Source of the DNA: Candidatus Raymondbacteria bacterium RIFOXYA2_FULL_49_16
GTDB taxonomy: Bacteria > Fibrobacterota > OXYB2-FULL-49-7 > XYB2-FULL-49-35
DNA: 19,737 nucleotides
NCBI GenBank assembly: GCA_001789205.1
Contig: MFYT01000111.1
Location: 1 to 19,737 of the forward strand
Direction: 5' to 3'
The notes under the pieces are model-generated. The model was not told the DNA's origin and did no database searches. It was given only the letters and a program-made list of their open reading frames with translations. Made by a program: the position numbers and the translations under genes. The stretch's first letter is position 1, and each line of letters opens with the position of its first letter. Positions 12,733-19,433 of the stretch are shown piece by piece.

Positions 12733-13317
12733 CTAGAACCGATACCCGGCGGTAAAACCAAAGTTTTGGCTGCGGGGAGAATAGGCCAGACGCACGTCGA
12801 ACTTTTTGTGTGCCTGCGCTGTCGCAAGCTTCTGATTGTACCTCTTGGCGCCTTGGTAGGCGTCATACAAGCCCCAAATATAAAAACCACCCGTGAGAAT
12901 AGCCGTGCTAAAGGTAAGGTATTTTTCCGTATCTGAGGGCCATTTCCAATCAGCGTCGGCTTTGGGAACATAGACAGACCGGTAAACACCTGTATGGGTC
13001 CCCTGCCTGGTGGTCTCGGCAAAATAAACCGTGTCAGTGTTAAACAATTCAAACCGTCCATACAAGTACTGGGCCAGGTAGAGACAGCCGTAAAATCCAG
13101 CCGCCGTAACGAGTCCCCGCCCATATTCCCGGTTGTAAATTTGACCCGTTCCCGGCAGGGTCGCGGAAAGGGCGCACGATGCGAATGGATCCTTGGGCAC
13201 TGCGTCATAATCGTATTGCGCAATCTGCGGCTTGAGTACAAAAGCACTGTCACCATCATCCGCATATGCGGCGATGGTGACAACTGCTATGCTTATTACG
13301 ATCAGGGCTCTGATCAC
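12733..13317 (-). CDS. DUF5683-type exported protein
   Basis: 194 residues. MIRALIVISIAVVTIAAYA is a signal peptide. The central LSATLPGTGQIYNREYGRG with following hydrophobic stretches (FYGCLYLAQYLYG and FSTAILTGGFYIWGLYDAYQ) is the signature of DUF5683, a membrane-associated family of unknown function common in diderm bacteria. The C-terminus FGFTAGYRF ends in an aromatic residue, as barrel-related outer-membrane proteins do. The start lies 12 nt after the lipoprotein stop, so the two form one minus-strand operon, probably driven by the sigma-54-like element at 14399-14414. It converges with the SNF2 gene over a 45-bp gap. Confidence 0.75.
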   Translation of the reverse strand: MIRALIVISIAVVTIAAYADDGDSAFVLKPQIAQYDYDAVPKDPFASCALSATLPGTGQIYNREYGRGLVTAAGFYGCLYLAQYLYGRFELFNTDTVYFAETTRQGTHTGVYRSVYVPKADADWKWPSDTEKYLTFSTAILTGGFYIWGLYDAYQGAKRYNQKLATAQAHKKFDVRLAYSPRSQNFGFTAGYRF

Positions 13318-13329
13318 ACGAGCGCCTTT

Positions 13330-14340
13330 CTAGTTATTGGTATAGTCCTGGGTTTCAAGCTCTGTTCCGTGCGCATCGACCTTGGAATAATATAATTTTT
13401 CACCCGAAGCGGTGTTCTTATAAATTGTAACCTCGCGATATCCCAGCGCCGCGTCCGTTGCCGGATAGAAATGGATGTTGAAGAAGAGGCTGTCACCGGT
13501 TTCGCCCCAGGGAATGGTAAAGGTCACCACGCCTTCATTGTCCTCGTAACGCAGATAGGGCAGAGTGGGGTCCTGGCTGTTCTTGTGAATGATCTGCAGG
13601 TCGAATGCAAACGTATGCGATTCACCGTTATCGTCCTTAGCGTCAAAAAACGATCCATGCCCGACCTGGGTATAGGTGGCTTCGTCAAGACTTGTCAGTT
13701 CAAAAGAGGCTGTGTCGCCTTTGCCTAATTCATCCAGCACTGATATGTTTTTGCCCCATGCTGTGGTATACCCTGGCCGAATGCTCGCTGGATCCTGGAG
13801 CGAACCTGCGCTGAATGTGATAGTGACATTAATAGTGTCAATTTCCATGTCGCTTCCCACAACATGCCATGTTTTTATTTCGCGGCCATTGGCTTTCCAT
13901 GAAATAACATCCGTGATAAGTGACGCATTGAGATTTGCGGGCAACGCTGGCACCGCCCCGCCATATCGGAAAGAGACCTCTGCTTTACCCGTAAATTTTT
14001 TAAGTGGATCCTGATTGTCAGGCTTGTTCACAACAGTTTCCCAATAGGTAAGAATACCATTGCCGCTATCGACAAGTCCATTACCGGTCTGCCAGATGTC
14101 CTGTGTAGCGCATCCGCGCGCCAGAAACTGCTTGGCAGCGCCTTGAGTAACAGTGCTCTTTGCGCCTTCCTTGCCATTTTCCTCTTCATTAATTGCCGAA
14201 GGTTTGCCCATGGCTTTTCCTATCTTTGCGAAAAGATCCAGACCTCCTGCAGCGCCCGGACCAAAAGGGTTTTTTCCGCATCCGGCAAGGACCACGCCCC
14301 CAACCAGAAGCACTGCGATCAATTTGTTTCGTGTAACCAT
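13330..14340 (-). CDS. Lipoprotein of unknown function
   Basis: 336 residues. The N-terminus MVTRNKLIAVLLVGGVVLAGC is a lipoprotein signal with the lipobox VLAGC; Cys21 would be lipidated and Gly at +2 does not signal inner-membrane retention, so the outer membrane is likely. A Gly/Ala/Asn-rich linker leads to a beta-rich, Thr/Asp-rich body (AEVSFRYGG, INVTITFSAG, HTFAFDLQIIH, VVTFTIPWGETGDSLFFNIHF). I recognise no domain; it reads like a beta-sandwich. ATG 14340 has AGGAGG five bases upstream. A sigma-54-like promoter lies 58 nt before the start with an enhancer-like palindrome further upstream, so control by the neighbouring two-component system is plausible. Cotranscribed with the DUF5683 gene. 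Confidence 0.8.
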   Translation of the reverse strand: MVTRNKLIAVLLVGGVVLAGCGKNPFGPGAAGGLDLFAKIGKAMGKPSAINEEENGKEGAKSTVTQGAAKQFLARGCATQDIWQTGNGLVDSGNGILTYWETVVNKPDNQDPLKKFTGKAEVSFRYGGAVPALPANLNASLITDVISWKANGREIKTWHVVGSDMEIDTINVTITFSAGSLQDPASIRPGYTTAWGKNISVLDELGKGDTASFELTSLDEATYTQVGHGSFFDAKDDNGESHTFAFDLQIIHKNSQDPTLPYLRYEDNEGVVTFTIPWGETGDSLFFNIHFYPATDAALGYREVTIYKNTASGEKLYYSKVDAHGTELETQDYTNN

Positions 14341-14398
14341 TCTCTCCTCCTTTTTATTATTGTTTTGGTTTTTTATAAGCTATTTTCCAAAACAATAC

Positions 14399-14414
14399 TT
14401 CAAAGAAAATGCCA
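14399..14414 (-). promoter_or_regulatory. Sigma-54-like -24/-12 promoter of the lipoprotein operon
   Basis: On the minus strand TGGCATTTTCTTTGAA matches the consensus TGGCAC-N5-TTGCW at the exact spacing: TGGCA and TTG are kept, with T for the last C of the -24 box and A for the -12 C. It ends 58 nt before the ATG at 14340. Activity would need a sigma-54 activator, and one is encoded at 17304-18653. The -12 mismatch lowers certainty. Confidence 0.5.
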
Positions 14415-14486
14415 GTTTTAAATATTCTGATAAGTCGCTGATATTGCAACAAATACAAAACACTCCGTTCTTGGTTTTTACTATTT

Positions 14487-14502
14487 GTATCATTCTTGAT
14501 AC
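14487..14502. promoter_or_regulatory. Palindrome GTATCA-N4-TGATAC, candidate activator site
   Basis: Perfect 6+6 inverted repeat GTATCA-TTCT-TGATAC. It lies 72 bp upstream of the sigma-54-like element of the lipoprotein operon, about -100 to -115 from the expected transcript start, the usual place for a sigma-54 activator. The same arms recur at 15474-15489. It could also form a weak 6-bp RNA hairpin, but no plus-strand gene ends here. Confidence 0.5.
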
Positions 14503-14534
14503 TGTTTTATTCATAAGAATATCACAATTGATAA

Positions 14535-15323
14535 TTAAAAAGCCCATCCAAGGCCAAGCAAAGGCAGCTTCACGTACTGAAATGTATAATGAGAAGCCAG
14601 GCTCAGATCAATGCGCAGATGGGTCCTCTTATACTGAAACCCAAAGAAAATAAAGGAATACAGGTCGCGGTCACGGTTGTCAAAGTCCAGCTTGTCGCTG
14701 TCCTTGGCAAATTGAAGACTCTTCATTGGAATAAACCGGGTGTTGGTCATATAATATTCAAATGAAAAGCTCCACCGTTCGTTTATAGCCACGCTATATG
14801 CCGGAATAATAAAAAAGGTGGACTGGTCCTGGTTCTGGTGTGAGGAGATTGAGGTAAATAGATTGAAGGAGTGCCTGTTCCATTGATATCCCTGGGTAAT
14901 AAACAGGGCTGTTGACTTGTCTTCAGAATCCATGAGAAGCATGGTGCTGTCACCGAACTGACTTTTTGAACTGTATGTTTTGAGCCCAACACCCGCTGTG
15001 TAGGGATGCCCCTTCACCTGGGCCGAGAAAGGCCTTGATTTTAAAGTAAAAATTCTGAAGTTGTCGGTCATGGTCCCACCCTGGGCTCGTAACAGGTTGG
15101 GCAATCCCGCTGCCACAAGATCAGCCATAAGCCAATTGTTGATGTTCCAATATCCTTCCCAGATAAGGAAGTCATTCATCCGTATGCCACCATGCCATTT
15201 TTCTCCAATGTCCGGCGTTTCACTGAAAATAACCTTGTGCGCAAAAGGTTTGGATCGTTCTTCAGCCATTGATCCCGTCACCAGCACTGCAATACACACA
15301 AAAATTGAAAAAATGGTCTTCAT
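14535..15323 (-). CDS. Outer-membrane beta-barrel-like protein of unknown function
   Basis: 262 residues. Signal peptide MKTIFSIFVCIAVLVTGSMA, then about 240 residues of alternating polar/aromatic beta strands (NFRIFTLKSRPFSAQVKG, HSFNLFTSISSHQNQDQSTF, WSFSFEYYMTNTRF, LYSFIFFGFQYKRTHLRIDL) ending in LPLLGLGWAF with a terminal Phe, the pattern of an integral outer-membrane barrel. No named family recognised. ATG 15323 is preferred over the in-frame ATG at 15353 because AGGAGG lies 7 nt upstream and the signal peptide starts there. A sigma-54-like element ends 58 nt upstream of the ATG, exactly as for the lipoprotein gene, and the second palindrome lies 76 bp beyond it. AT-rich, gene-free sequence of 194 bp separates its stop from the lipoprotein start. 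Confidence 0.75.
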   Translation of the reverse strand: MKTIFSIFVCIAVLVTGSMAEERSKPFAHKVIFSETPDIGEKWHGGIRMNDFLIWEGYWNINNWLMADLVAAGLPNLLRAQGGTMTDNFRIFTLKSRPFSAQVKGHPYTAGVGLKTYSSKSQFGDSTMLLMDSEDKSTALFITQGYQWNRHSFNLFTSISSHQNQDQSTFFIIPAYSVAINERWSFSFEYYMTNTRFIPMKSLQFAKDSDKLDFDNRDRDLYSFIFFGFQYKRTHLRIDLSLASHYTFQYVKLPLLGLGWAF

Positions 15324-15381
15324 CTCTTCTCCTCCTGGTCTGAATTTTATCAAGGCACGCTTTTTGATTCATCCCTGGATA

Positions 15382-15397
15382 AACAAATTACATACCA
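15382..15397 (-). promoter_or_regulatory. Sigma-54-like -24/-12 promoter of the barrel gene
   Basis: The minus-strand sequence TGGTATGTAATTTGTT keeps TGG-A, the exact spacer and TTG-T of the consensus TGGCAC-N5-TTGCW but has T for C at three positions. It is a weaker match than the one at 14399-14414. Support comes from its identical distance (58 nt) to the start codon and from the shared upstream palindrome. A perfect inverted repeat CAAATG-ATA-CATTTG (15396-15410) overlaps its upstream edge. Confidence 0.42.
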
Positions 15398-15473
15398 AAT
15401 GATACATTTGCCTAACAACAATATAAATCAAAGGGATTTGCCATGAAAAGCCCCTGAAAGAAAAAAGAGCCGA

Positions 15474-15489
15474 GTATCAATTATGATAC
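15474..15489. promoter_or_regulatory. Second copy of palindrome GTATCA-N4-TGATAC
   Basis: GTATCA-ATTA-TGATAC has the same arms as the copy at 14487-14502. It lies 76 bp upstream of the sigma-54-like element of the barrel gene (minus strand) and 37 bp before the ATG of the DUF4390-kinase-activator operon (plus strand). One protein bound here could act on both divergent units. The plus-strand side has AT-rich sequence with a possible TATATT -10 box but no sigma-54-like element. Confidence 0.5.
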
Positions 15490-15526
15490 GGAAACGATAA
15501 AATTAAATTATATTAATTTCTGATCA

Positions 15527-16111
15527 ATGAGTTTTATTATAAGCATAGTCTTTGCCGTAAAAAGCATTCTGCTTTTTACTGGCGCGGTTGCTCAGGACAA
15601 ATCCGCGGCCTATTTTGACCAGCCCCAGATTATTGTTGTTGGGGAAGAGGTGAAGATGAGCTGCGGATTGCACAATGCCTTTCCCGATGAATTGAAAAAA
15701 CTGGCCGCCACGGGTACGGAAATCCCCCTGTACTTTTTTATTGAAATCAAGACCAGCCCGTCACAAGGCACGCTTCACCAGACTATTATTGAACACACCC
15801 TGAGGTACGACCTTATTGCCAAACAATACTGGGTAGTGCGCAAGCCGGCCATGGACACCCTTGGTTTTGCCTCGGCCGATTCGGCGATTGCGCAGGCATG
15901 CACCTTTCCCCGTTTCAGCGCCTTTCCCCTTTCAATAATCGACAAGGACAAAATGTATACCATTACCTCGTATGCAGTACTGGGAAAGGCCATGGTCGAG
16001 GCGCTCGAAAACCACTCTATTGATCTTATGTATTACTGGAACTACAAGCGGCCGACAATTAAGACAGAAAAAATCCCGGGCGGTCAATTCCTGGCCCGCG
16101 GAAGGAAGTGA
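15527..16111 (+). CDS. DUF4390 exported protein, first gene of the two-component operon
   Basis: 194 residues. An N-terminal hydrophobic segment (FIISIVFAVKSILLFTGAVA) acts as signal peptide or anchor. The body follows the DUF4390 pattern: a first strand block (FDQPQIIVVGEEVKMSCGL), a central block PLYFFIEIKTSP, HTLRYDLIAKQYWVV, and a late YAVLGKAMVEALENHSID. Function is unknown. The family is repeatedly found directly upstream of NtrY-like kinases, as here (6 nt to the kinase gene), which suggests a periplasmic partner that could inform the kinase; that role is inference. ATG 15527 has no strong Shine-Dalgarno, so initiation may be weak. Confidence 0.7.
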   Translation: MSFIISIVFAVKSILLFTGAVAQDKSAAYFDQPQIIVVGEEVKMSCGLHNAFPDELKKLAATGTEIPLYFFIEIKTSPSQGTLHQTIIEHTLRYDLIAKQYWVVRKPAMDTLGFASADSAIAQACTFPRFSAFPLSIIDKDKMYTITSYAVLGKAMVEALENHSIDLMYYWNYKRPTIKTEKIPGGQFLARGRK

Positions 16112-16117
16112 GCGCGC

Positions 16118-17326
16118 ATGAAAAATATTTCCCTGCGCACAAAGACTTTTGTACTGCTCTTTTTCGTGGTACTCTGCGCGACCGTACCGCTTATCATCTT
16201 CTACACCAAGGCCGCGCAGGGCCTTGCCGCGCTGGGCGCTGACCCGGCAATAGAGACCAACCTGGCAAAGACCATTGATTTGGCGCCTGACCAGGAGGGA
16301 AAAAAACAGGCCGCTCTTGCGTTAAAAAAATACCGGCAGATCGGGGTGCTGAAACAGGGGATTATACGCCAGGTACTGGTCTTCAGCGTCTTCTTTTTTG
16401 CCTTTACCATTGTGGTGACCCTCACTCTTGGCTTCTTTTTCACCTCGCGCATCACTAAACCGCTATCCAACCTCACTGCGGCCATACGCCGTCTTGCCGG
16501 AGACGACGCGCCCAAAAAGCTGAAAGACCGCGCGGGCGGTGAAATCGGCGTGCTCATTGAGTCGTTCAATAAAATGGCCGCGGACCTAGCCAGCGCGCGC
16601 GAACAACGCGCCATGGCCGAGCGCCGCGCTACCTGGCAGCATGTGGCGCGCACCATAGCGCACGAGATAAAAAATCCGCTCACACCCATCAGGCTCTCCA
16701 CCGAGCGCATGTACGACAAGTTCTTGAATGCAAGCGCGGATTTTCCCGACGTGATAAAAAGCACGACCACCACTATTCTCCACGAAATAGAGAACCTGCA
16801 AAAACTGGTGGACTCGTTCCACAAATACGCGAAATTCCCTGACCCTGCCCTGCGCAGGGAAAAGATCGACGCTATCCTTGGCGAGCTTGTGCCCATGCTG
16901 CAGACAACAGGAGTCGATCTCTCACTTTCATGCACCAGCCCCTTGCCTGAGGTCATGATTGACAAGGGGCAGATACGCGAGGCCTTCACCAACCTTATCA
17001 AAAACGCGATCCAGGCCATTCAGGAAAAGGGCGGACTTGGCGCTGTCCGGGTGGTATGCACGCGGGAGGACCTCAAAATCGTTATTTCAGTGGAGGACAA
17101 CGGGGCGGGCATTCAGGAAGAGAACATGAAGCGGCTCTTTCAGCCCTATTTTACCACAAAAAAACACGGCAGCGGCATTGGCCTTGCTTTGACAGAACGT
17201 ATTATCAACCTTCACGGCGGCACCATTGCGGTGCGGAGCCATGCGGGTCAGGGGACTGTCTTTACACTCAACCTTCCCCTGCCGCCTGAAACAGGAGAAT
17301 ACTATGGCAAAAATACTGGTCATTGA
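16118..17326 (+). CDS. Membrane sensor histidine kinase (NtrY-like)
   Basis: 402 residues. TM1 at about 9-29 and TM2 at about 86-109 enclose a small periplasmic part of about 55 residues. A HAMP linker follows (SRITKPLSNLTAAIRRLAGD). The dimerisation/phosphoacceptor box is IAHEIKNPLTPI with His182. The ATPase domain has the N box NLIKNAIQAI (N292, N296), G1 DNGAGI (327-332), FTTKK and G2 GSGIGLAL (351-358). The HEIKNPLTPI box and ending resemble NtrY kinases, but the PAS domain and extra membrane helices of classical NtrY are absent. It should phosphorylate the activator encoded next, whose gene overlaps by 23 nt. Signal unknown. Confidence 0.9.
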   Translation: MKNISLRTKTFVLLFFVVLCATVPLIIFYTKAAQGLAALGADPAIETNLAKTIDLAPDQEGKKQAALALKKYRQIGVLKQGIIRQVLVFSVFFFAFTIVVTLTLGFFFTSRITKPLSNLTAAIRRLAGDDAPKKLKDRAGGEIGVLIESFNKMAADLASAREQRAMAERRATWQHVARTIAHEIKNPLTPIRLSTERMYDKFLNASADFPDVIKSTTTTILHEIENLQKLVDSFHKYAKFPDPALRREKIDAILGELVPMLQTTGVDLSLSCTSPLPEVMIDKGQIREAFTNLIKNAIQAIQEKGGLGAVRVVCTREDLKIVISVEDNGAGIQEENMKRLFQPYFTTKKHGSGIGLALTERIINLHGGTIAVRSHAGQGTVFTLNLPLPPETGEYYGKNTGH

Positions 17327-18653
17327 CGACGAAGAGAACATCCGAAAGACCCTTGACGAGATCCTTTCAGACGAGGCGCACGAAGTGGTTTCAGCCGGCG
17401 ACGGTAACCAGGGGCTGCGTGCGCTCAAAGAGGAACTTCCCGACGTGGTGCTGCTGGACATCCAGCTTCCGGGAAGGGATGGGCTCGAGATACTACAGGA
17501 AATTAAATCCTCGGGCGTTGACTGTGAAGTAATTATGATTTCGGGCCATGGCACCATTGAAGCGGCCATCAAGGCCATACGACTGGGCGCCTACCACTTT
17601 CTGCAGAAGCCCCTTGCCATGGTCGAAGTGAAGCAGAACGTGCGGCACGCGGCAGAGGCAAAACTTCAGCGCGATGAACTGCAGAGCCTGAAAGAGAAGG
17701 AAGGGAACAGATACCGGATCGTTGGTACAGGAAGCGCTGTTGAGCGCATGGAGCAGCAGATTGCCAAAGTGGCGCCCACACCGGGCCGGGTCCTTATCAC
17801 CGGCCAGAGCGGCTCGGGCAAGGAGCTTGTCGCCTACGCGATCCACCGGCAGAGCCAGCGCGCCTCTGGTCCTTTTGTAAAAATCAACTGTGCTGCCATT
17901 CCTCAAAACCTGATAGAGAGCGAACTTTTTGGCCACGAAAGAGGGTCGTTCACCGGCGCCGTGTCCCTGAAAAAAGGCAAATTCGAAACAGCCCACCTGG
18001 GCACGCTCTTTCTGGATGAGATCGGCGACATGGACCTTAACACGCAGACCAAAGTGCTGCGGGTTATTCAGGAAGGTGAGTTTGAGCGCGTGGGTGGAAT
18101 CAAAACCATTAAAGTCGACGTGCGCATCGTGGCTGCGACCCACCGCGACCTTGAAGCCATGATTGCAGCGAGGACATTCAGAGAAGACCTCTACTACCGG
18201 CTCAACGTGGTGCCCATCCGGGTGCCCACGCTTGCGGAAAGGACCGAGGACATTCCTGCTCTGGCCCAATATTTTCTGGAACTCTACTGCGCTGAAAACA
18301 GCATGGCAAAAAAGTCTTTTGCGTCCGAGGCGCTGTCGCTTTTATGCGCACGTACCTACAAGGGAAACATCAGGGAATTAAAAAACATTGTTGAGCGCGC
18401 CGCGATTCTGACTGAAGCACCAGTCATATCCGCTGCAGCCCTCCAGGCGCTTATCGAGATTAAGCAGGAAGCCAACATGTCGCTCTTTACCCGTACGCGG
18501 CCACTCAATCAGGCCAAAGACGAATTGGAACGGGTCTATGTGCAGACCCAGCTTGAATTGAATGAATGGAACATTCCCCGCACCGCGGACCTGCTCGATA
18601 TGCAGCGCACCAATTTGCACCGGAAGATAAAACAGCTGGGTATTGAACGGTGA
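17304..18653 (+). CDS. Sigma-54-dependent response regulator (NtrC/NtrX-like)
   Basis: 449 residues. Receiver domain 1-120 with D8/D9, phosphoacceptor D52 ([13 protein letters not shown]) and K102. AAA+ domain: Walker A GQSGSGKE (167-174), sigma-54 contact loop GSFTGA (214-219; Ser in place of Ala in the canonical GAFTGA), Walker B LFLDEIGD (235-242) and the arginine-rich [12 protein letters not shown]. The C-terminal Fis-type helix-turn-helix is [20 protein letters not shown] to the end. It should turn on sigma-54 promoters after phosphorylation by the adjacent kinase. I chose ATG 17304 (ACAGGAGA upstream) where the receiver begins; the longer frame lies inside the kinase gene. Its likely targets in this window are the promoters at 14399 and 15382. 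The stop codon coincides with the start of a palindromic repeat. Confidence 0.92.
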
Positions 18654-18711: not shown

Positions 18712-18835
18712 AAAATCCCTCTTGTACTAGCGCTGACCTCTCCCCCAACAGACAAAAAAATCTGCCTACGCCCCCTCTCCGTACGGAGAGGGGGCCTGGC
18801 AGTCGCATATTCCCTTGGGGGGTGAGGTCAGCCCC
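18712..18835. repeat. Palindromic MITE/REP-like element, copy 1
   Basis: About 124 bp, nearly identical to 19308-19433 and in the same orientation. Imperfect terminal inverted repeats: GCTGACCTCTCCCCCAA at 18732-18748 against TTGGGGGGTGAGGTCAGC at 18815-18832. At its centre is a perfect 24-bp palindrome (18771-18794), CCCCCTCTCCGT followed by its reverse complement. The last 22 codons of the DUF559 gene and its stop are made from this element. Confidence 0.8.
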
Positions 18836-19206
18836 ACAACGCAAGAGCGCCGTATTTTTTCCAGCACTTTTCCAATATCAGAAAAAACTTCCCCGTTTTT
18901 TATGCGAAGTACCGTAAGCCCTTTTTCGCTGAAAATCCGATCGCGTTCCGCGTCATATGTCTTTTGTTCAGGAGAATTATGCACGCTGCCGTCTATTTCT
19001 ACAACCAAACCAGCCGCGTCGCAGTAAAAATCTGCAATAAATCCCACAATAACCTGTTGTCGCCGGAACTTTATCCCATCGAGCCGTTTCGCGCGTATCT
19101 GTTCCCAGATCAATTTCTCCGCAGGAGTCATTGTAGTGCGCAGGGCTTTTGATAGTTGCACTTTAAGAGGTGTGACTTTTTGAAATCTTGCAATAGCGCG
19201 AGACAT
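18766..19206 (-). CDS. DUF559 (Vsr-like fold) endonuclease-domain protein
   Basis: 146 residues from ATG 19206, where the conserved protein begins; an in-frame ATG at 19356 would lie inside repeat copy 2. Family motifs: MTPAEKLIWEQIRAKRLDGI, KFRRQQVIVGFIADFYC, LVVEIDGSVHN (acidic residues of the predicted nuclease site), YDAERDRIFSEKGLTVLRIK and NGEVFSDIGKVLEKI. This is the PD-(D/E)XK/Vsr-like DUF559 family; its biological role is not established. The C-terminal tail (TSPPKGICDCQAPSPYGEGA) is translated repeat sequence. Codon use is more AT-rich than in the kinase operon. With repeats on both sides in direct orientation, the gene looks like the cargo or partner of a small dispersed unit. Confidence 0.82.
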   Translation of the reverse strand: MSRAIARFQKVTPLKVQLSKALRTTMTPAEKLIWEQIRAKRLDGIKFRRQQVIVGFIADFYCDAAGLVVEIDGSVHNSPEQKTYDAERDRIFSEKGLTVLRIKNGEVFSDIGKVLEKIRRSCVVGLTSPPKGICDCQAPSPYGEGA

Positions 19207-19307
19207 AGCGTCCTTTCCAAAAAAACAAGGCCAGCGTGTAGAAAGGTCTAAAAACCTCTCCGCGCAAGGAAGCAATATACTTATAAAGCCGCAATTGCGT
19301 GAATAAA

Positions 19308-19433
19308 AAAATCCCTCTTGTACCGGCGCTGACCTCTCCCCCAACAGCCAAAACAATCTGCCTACGCCCCCTCTCCGTACGGAGAGGGGGTCTGGCAGTC
19401 TAATATTCCCATTGGGGGTGAGGTCAGCGCCCC
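19308..19433. repeat. Palindromic MITE/REP-like element, copy 2
   Basis: Direct repeat of 18712-18835 with about ten differences, offset 596 bp. Same terminal inverted repeats and the same central 24-bp palindrome (19367-19390). It lies upstream of the DUF559 start codon, so the two copies bracket the gene and recombination between them would remove it. Confidence 0.8.

Follow-up and report, generated by a model that had tools for sequence, protein, structure and literature searches.

A conserved palindrome as the putative enhancer of a small sigma-54 surface-protein regulon beside an NtrX-like activator operon in Fibrobacterota

Several described systems resemble the locus considered here. 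At the E. coli glnAp2 promoter, two tandem palindromic NtrC sites lie upstream of the -24/-12 promoter, at -108 and -140. A published account places these sites at about 90 and 140 (PMC7408454). In Desulfovibrio vulgaris, sigma-54 regulons were predicted from a palindrome and conserved -24/-12 elements beside a co-localised activator gene (PMC4641369), and sigma-54 has been linked to the bacterial exterior, lipoproteins included (PMC3162934). The NtrX regulator of alphaproteobacteria (Brucella, Sinorhizobium) binds palindromes, including near ntrY, with CAA-N2-5-TTG as reported site and cell-cycle genes among its targets (PMC9223101); the Rhodobacter NtrX site is GCA-N9-TGC. The NtrYX-family system PlrSR of Bordetella includes a DUF4390 protein, PlrP, as its third component, and the periplasmic PDC domain of the kinase is probably the part through which PlrP acts (PMC13001219), and the published DUF4390 survey covered Proteobacteria. 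Is there a comparable circuit in Fibrobacterota, for which a full-text literature search returned no sigma-54 regulon study? We analysed a window of 19,737 nt, the whole contig MFYT01000111.1 (C111) of a 5.43-Mb genome (G000), together with a comparison set of 167 Fibrobacterota genomes. From the sequences we infer, with good confidence, that the palindrome GTATCA-N4-TGATAC is bound by the sigma-54 activator encoded at 17304..18653 and acts as its enhancer, driving a small sigma-54 regulon of surface proteins.

The palindrome occurs twice in the window without mismatch. The first copy, GTATCATTCTTGATAC (14487..14502), lies upstream of a minus-strand lipoprotein gene (13330..14340), and the second, GTATCAATTATGATAC (15474..15489), lies between a minus-strand gene for a presumed outer-membrane barrel (14535..15323) and the plus-strand activator operon, whose first gene encodes a DUF4390 protein (15527..16111). 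Each of the two minus-strand units is preceded by a -24/-12 element on the same strand, TGGCATTTTCTTTGAA (14399..14414) for the lipoprotein and DUF5683 genes and TGGTATGTAATTTGTT (15382..15397) for the barrel gene. Both elements read TGG-A-N6-TTG, and both 16-mers end 58 nt before the ATG (60 nt if counted only to the TTG). An initial annotation had described the two perfect palindromes, the elements at sigma-54 spacing, gaps of 72 and 76 bp between elements and palindromes, and the 37 bp that separate GTATCAATTATGATAC from the DUF4390 ATG, and all of these were confirmed on checking the sequence. It had overlooked an imperfect copy with two mismatches, ATATCACAATTGATAA (14519..14534), which also came up in paired-site scans and lies exactly 32 bp from GTATCATTCTTGATAC. 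The lipoprotein promoter thus has a proximal and a distal putative enhancer site, and the pair (14487-14534) stands directly after the stop codon of the barrel gene. The two sites have their centres some 106 and 138 bp ahead of the predicted start and so resemble the tandem sites of glnAp2. They also match NtrC-type enhancers in general, whose sites lie at about 80-150 bp from the start on its upstream side and are often paired in helical phase. The differences from glnAp2 lie in the palindrome itself, in the activator subfamily, and in the targets, which are surface proteins rather than genes of nitrogen assimilation.

The motif is rare. Exactly two perfect copies exist in the 5.43-Mb genome, both in the same 1-kb stretch of the window, while about 0.3 would be expected from genome length alone and the backwards control pattern has none. 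Palindromes with one mismatch also outnumber the control in each of three genomes (19 vs 6, 21 vs 3 and 16 vs 6), but we give this excess no weight, since the control pattern differs in composition. The promoter elements are less distinctive. The predicted promoters have the GG at -25/-24 and the TTG at -12 that mark sigma-54 promoters, except for the C of the -12 GC, and taken singly they are unremarkable, since of the 39,444 16-mers in the window 25 and 45, respectively, reach an equal or higher score. The case therefore rests on conservation and not on the window matches alone.

A protein search with the activator gave orthologs in two genomes, G032 (68% identity) and G056 (64%), the next best match being 45% identical. 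In both relatives the locus (L037 and L038, respectively) is arranged as in the window, with the barrel, lipoprotein and DUF5683 genes on one strand and the DUF4390, kinase and activator genes on the other, and both equivalent positions carry the palindrome. The paired sites of the lipoprotein promoter have a spacing of exactly 32 bp in G000, G032, G056 and a more distant genome, G158, discussed below. Measured, as are all distances hereafter unless stated otherwise, from the palindrome centre to the TGG of the -24 element, the sites lie 80.5 and 112.5 bp upstream in G000, 82.5 and 114.5 bp in G032, and 81.5 and 113.5 bp in G056. The DNA between these conserved elements shows no obvious conservation. 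The lipoprotein-promoter elements of the relatives, TGGCATACCCTTTGCA and TGGCACAGCAATCGCA, are near-consensus and better than that of the window. In the divergent intergenic region, the equivalents of GTATCAATTATGATAC are GTATCATTGGTGATAC (L037 5710) and GTATCGTTTTTGATAC (L038 5956), and the barrel-promoter elements are TGGCATGCTTTTTGTT and TGGCACATCATTTGGT. Each of G000, G032 and G056 has a single rpoN (PF04552 match), with the RpoN box ARRTISKYRE in G000 and ARRTVAKYR in the other two. Conservation in relatives and the presence of rpoN had both been named beforehand as tests on which the proposal could fail; rpoN is present, the palindrome and the -24/-12 elements are kept, and the distances are kept for the lipoprotein promoter. 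The nearly constant spacing at that promoter supports an enhancer-like position of the palindrome, and the joint conservation of palindromes and elements supports sigma-54 control of the neighbouring envelope genes.

Can the motif find target genes by itself? All 167 genomes were scanned with the DNA motif only, either as paired half-degenerate palindromes or as a palindrome plus a -24/-12 element. Beyond G000, G032, G056 and G069 (a congener of G032), the scans gave scattered matches and one further locus, on contig C54 of G158, a genome of another family. There a barrel-like gene, a lipoprotein with the GCG-NPF start and a DUF5683 gene follow in the same order as in the window, and the paired sites are positioned 68.5 and 100.5 bp from the sigma-54 element TGGCACAAAATTTGAT. 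Homology is detectable for the lipoprotein (E 7e-13, profile comparison) and the DUF5683 protein (6e-12, BLASTP) and is weak for the barrel. Contig C54 begins 244 bp ahead of the barrel gene, and a further one-mismatch palindrome lies within this interval, at position 126. A lipoprotein search of the 167 genomes had overlooked G158, and the motif is specific enough to locate a diverged target locus from DNA alone. That search returned the G032 and G056 orthologs plus two remote matches, in G014 and G067, which were set aside, as they stand in other gene contexts with no palindrome upstream.

Palindromes with at most one mismatch were then listed genome-wide in G000, G032 and G056, which makes the resulting list of regulon members a minimum. 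Sites were classed as intergenic or coding from the largest non-overlapping open reading frames, with a tally made by hand, and a sigma-54 match was counted if it scored at least 13.9, was correctly oriented and lay 60-160 bp from the palindrome. Such a match accompanies 12 of the 15 intergenic palindromes and 3 of the 41 coding ones (Fisher p 3e-7). The syntenic locus contributes seven of these 12, and without it the proportions are 5/8 and 3/41 (p about 0.001). These p-values overstate the specific link, because intergenic and coding DNA are unlike in both composition and promoter content; better evidence comes from the pairing and from the orthologous positions. In total, 15 promoters in five genomes carry the palindrome 60-115 bp upstream of a sigma-54 element, or about 150 bp upstream at two barrel promoters. 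Sites are paired at 31-33 bp in 9 of the 15, and several of the 15 have near-consensus sigma-54 elements. Among the further targets, lipoproteins and secreted proteins predominate, namely a Por_Secre_tail protein in G000 (contig C9), lipoproteins in G032 (C215) and G056 (C112 and C131), and a secreted protein in G056 (C9). The C215 promoter is conserved in G069, with two sites 33 bp apart. The original picture of a local regulon thus needs a qualification: in G000 the perfect motif is limited to the window, but similar sites precede sigma-54 promoters elsewhere in these genomes, and the regulon is not purely local. This output fits the bacterial-exterior theme of sigma-54 (PMC3162934).

There is a further question, whether the activator controls its own operon. 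In G056, a near-consensus sigma-54 element, TGGCATAAGGCTTGCA, lies 73.5 bp downstream of the shared palindrome and faces the activator operon. In G032, the near-consensus TGGCATTTTATTTGCA lies 63.5 bp downstream and faces the operon via an inserted gene directly behind it (contig C32; L037 5827-7113), a fusion of response regulator and Ser-Thr protein kinase that stands between the palindrome and DUF4390. This arrangement favours autoregulation through sigma-54 in the relatives. In the window the sigma-54 promoter is missing, so that here the palindrome near the operon would act at least on the barrel gene. The intergenic region between the divergent units measures only 203 bp in the window but 363 bp in G056, which suggests the loss of a segment. 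A weak sigma-54-like match on the plus strand, AGGCACGCTTTTTGAT (15353..15368; score 14.8; 158 nt before the DUF4390 ATG), could be a promoter of the operon, in which case the palindrome would lie downstream of it; it is unproven and we do not rely on it.

If the palindrome is the activator's enhancer, the circuit might work as follows. The DUF4390 protein, together with the membrane kinase, would sense a presumed envelope signal, and this would lead to phosphorylation of the regulator. The phosphorylated regulator would bind the palindromes, as a 32-bp pair at the lipoprotein-DUF5683 unit and as a single site between the barrel gene and the operon. Once bound it would oligomerise, and DNA looping and ATP hydrolysis would open the RNA polymerase-sigma-54 complexes waiting at the -24/-12 elements. 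The output would be the exported lipoprotein, the DUF5683 protein, the presumed outer-membrane barrel and the products of a few other lipoprotein and secreted-protein genes elsewhere; in the relatives, the activator would also drive its own operon through sigma-54.

Some observations weigh against this proposal. The canonical GC at -13/-12 is absent from both window elements, which have GA and GT instead, and no -24/-12 element lies between GTATCAATTATGATAC and the DUF4390 ATG. At the barrel gene, the distance from promoter to palindrome is 84.5 bp in the window but 151.5 bp in one relative and 149.5 bp in the other. No activator ortholog is among the best matches elsewhere in G158, a genome that is 79% complete and whose contig C54 reaches only 244 bp beyond the start of the barrel gene. 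What is more, many sigma-54 activators are encoded (104 first-look candidates, with 28 of 28 scored matching), and another of them could own the site. The palindromes would then be sigma-54 enhancers of a different activator encoded elsewhere, and the neighbouring operon merely another target. Several of the encoded activators are 40-43% identical to that of the locus, and palindrome sites also occur away from its operon. However, in three genomes it is this operon that the strongest sites flank, and in the relatives they lie upstream of its promoter, and the segment QRTNLHRKI of the helix-turn-helix (HTH) domain is invariant in the three activator orthologs. In addition, the operon marker DUF4390 (PF14334) exceeds its cut-off in exactly 3 of the 167 genomes, G000, G032 and G056, all of which hold the complete locus. 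(Weak DUF4390-like matches in G002 and G065 were discarded, the palindrome being absent at the equivalent place.) We therefore regard ownership by another activator as unlikely. For the activator of the locus the support is indirect but good, in that the best sites of three genomes flank its operon and the operon promoters of the relatives bear sites.

In a second alternative, a repressor or another ordinary transcription factor uses the palindromes as its operators, the -24/-12 matches being coincidental or independent. The copy 37 bp before the DUF4390 ATG, with no sigma-54 element between, could act in this way, and the -12 elements of the window are imperfect. Nevertheless, placement upstream of sigma-54 elements in 15 promoters and pairing at 9 of them fit an enhancer and not a core-promoter operator, which leaves this alternative very improbable. 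Finally, the palindromes might form hairpins in RNA, as terminators or attenuators do, or might be due to chance, but this is hardly credible: although the perfect copies have RNA folding energies of -5.3 to -6.1 kcal/mol, more favourable than those of almost every shuffled sequence, and the 14487-14534 pair follows the barrel stop codon, the stem has only six mostly A-T pairs and no T run, no terminator-like site exists in 15324-15640, the sites are conserved at promoters and not at gene ends with their spacing to -24/-12 kept, and counts and conservation exclude chance, so the hairpin reading was rejected.

How does the enhancer-bound activator proposed here compare with the known NtrX-type regulators? 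The protein at 17304..18653 (plus strand) has a receiver (PF00072), an AAA+ domain (PF00158) and a Fis-type HTH (PF02954, HTH_8); its AAA+ motif is GSFTGA in the window and GAFTGA in the relatives. Families were assigned by Pfam and NCBIfam profile search, and the best NCBIfam model is NtrX (NF051870) at 454 bits, under the cut-off of 600, so the protein is NtrX-like only. It shares with alphaproteobacterial NtrX the type of regulator, while the palindrome differs. The operon resembles PlrP-PlrS-PlrR, with the order DUF4390, kinase, NtrX-like regulator, with genes close or overlapping, and with an exported DUF4390 protein (15527..16111, PlrP-like; PF14334 30.7 bits, cut-off 27). The lineage is Fibrobacterota and not Proteobacteria, however, and the activator falls under the NtrX cut-off. 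The kinase (16118..17326, plus strand; HAMP-HisKA-HATPase) differs too. Hydropathy indicates two transmembrane segments at about 3-34 and 80-112, and the loop of about 45-55 residues between them is too short for a periplasmic PDC domain, for which Pfam gave no match. The coupling of DUF4390 protein and kinase must therefore differ from that of PlrP. With the predicted Desulfovibrio vulgaris regulons the locus has in common a palindrome and conserved -24/-12 elements beside a co-localised activator gene, and it differs in its new lineage, its motif and its targets without family assignment.

Of those targets, the lipoprotein, with a GCG-NPF start and the lipobox LAGC, has orthologs of 43% and 40% identity besides the distant one in G158. 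The presumed barrel, with a signal peptide and a GWAF C-terminus, has orthologs of 42% and 37% identity. As the initial annotation had supposed, neither belongs to a recognised family, in that neither has a match in Pfam or NCBIfam. Structures predicted from two-sequence alignments, with mean predicted local distance difference test scores of 30 (barrel) and 34 (lipoprotein), were too poor to judge the fold. The DUF5683 protein (12733..13317, minus strand; PF18935, E 7.7e-7) has a signal peptide, and its gene, whose order is kept in G032, G056 and G158, is probably co-transcribed with the lipoprotein gene. One might go further and imagine a self-contained envelope-sensing module, in which the DUF4390 protein and the short-loop kinase monitor a surface complex of lipoprotein, DUF5683 protein and presumed barrel, whose genes the activator would switch on through sigma-54, a single outer-membrane structure under feedback control; this is speculative and we hold it to be rather doubtful. 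The mechanism as such is textbook, and the novelty lies in the motif, the lineage, the link to DUF4390 outside Proteobacteria and the targets without family. Because palindrome and spacing are conserved in related genomes beside the activator operon, we can propose a DNA site and a small target set for an activator of Fibrobacterota that is NtrX/PlrR-like and has a DUF4390 partner, and three surface proteins are tied to one control circuit and become testable as a unit.

Some minor observations may be added. In G032, G056 and G069, a site-bearing lipoprotein promoter is divergent from a gene for a CgeB-like glycosyltransferase (Glyco_trans_1_2; DUF3880 in L080), at L080 2157-3809, L112 2107-3747 and L158 3468-5111; the lipoproteins beside it look similar in G032 and G069, and that of G056 does not. 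A related palindrome, CTATCAAAATTGATAG (L188 6722-6737, contig C175 of G065), lies between the divergent strong sigma-54 matches TGGCATACCATTTGCC and TGGCACAAATATCGCT and is possibly the site of another activator. Two genomes of family f7 have TGTCA-N4-TGACA palindromes upstream of sigma-54-like elements (G057:C40:158471-158562 and G163:C35:35776-35867), and the G057 site is found just after an activator-like gene (156860-158218). At the far end of the window, a near-identical stretch of about 90 bases (CTGACCTCTCCCCCAACAG..CCCCCTCTCCGTACGGAGAGGGGG..GGTGAGGTCAGC) occurs at 18720-18830 and again at 19320-19430, and the two copies lie at the two ends of a minus-strand open reading frame (18766-19356) whose product may be a DUF559-type nuclease-like protein.

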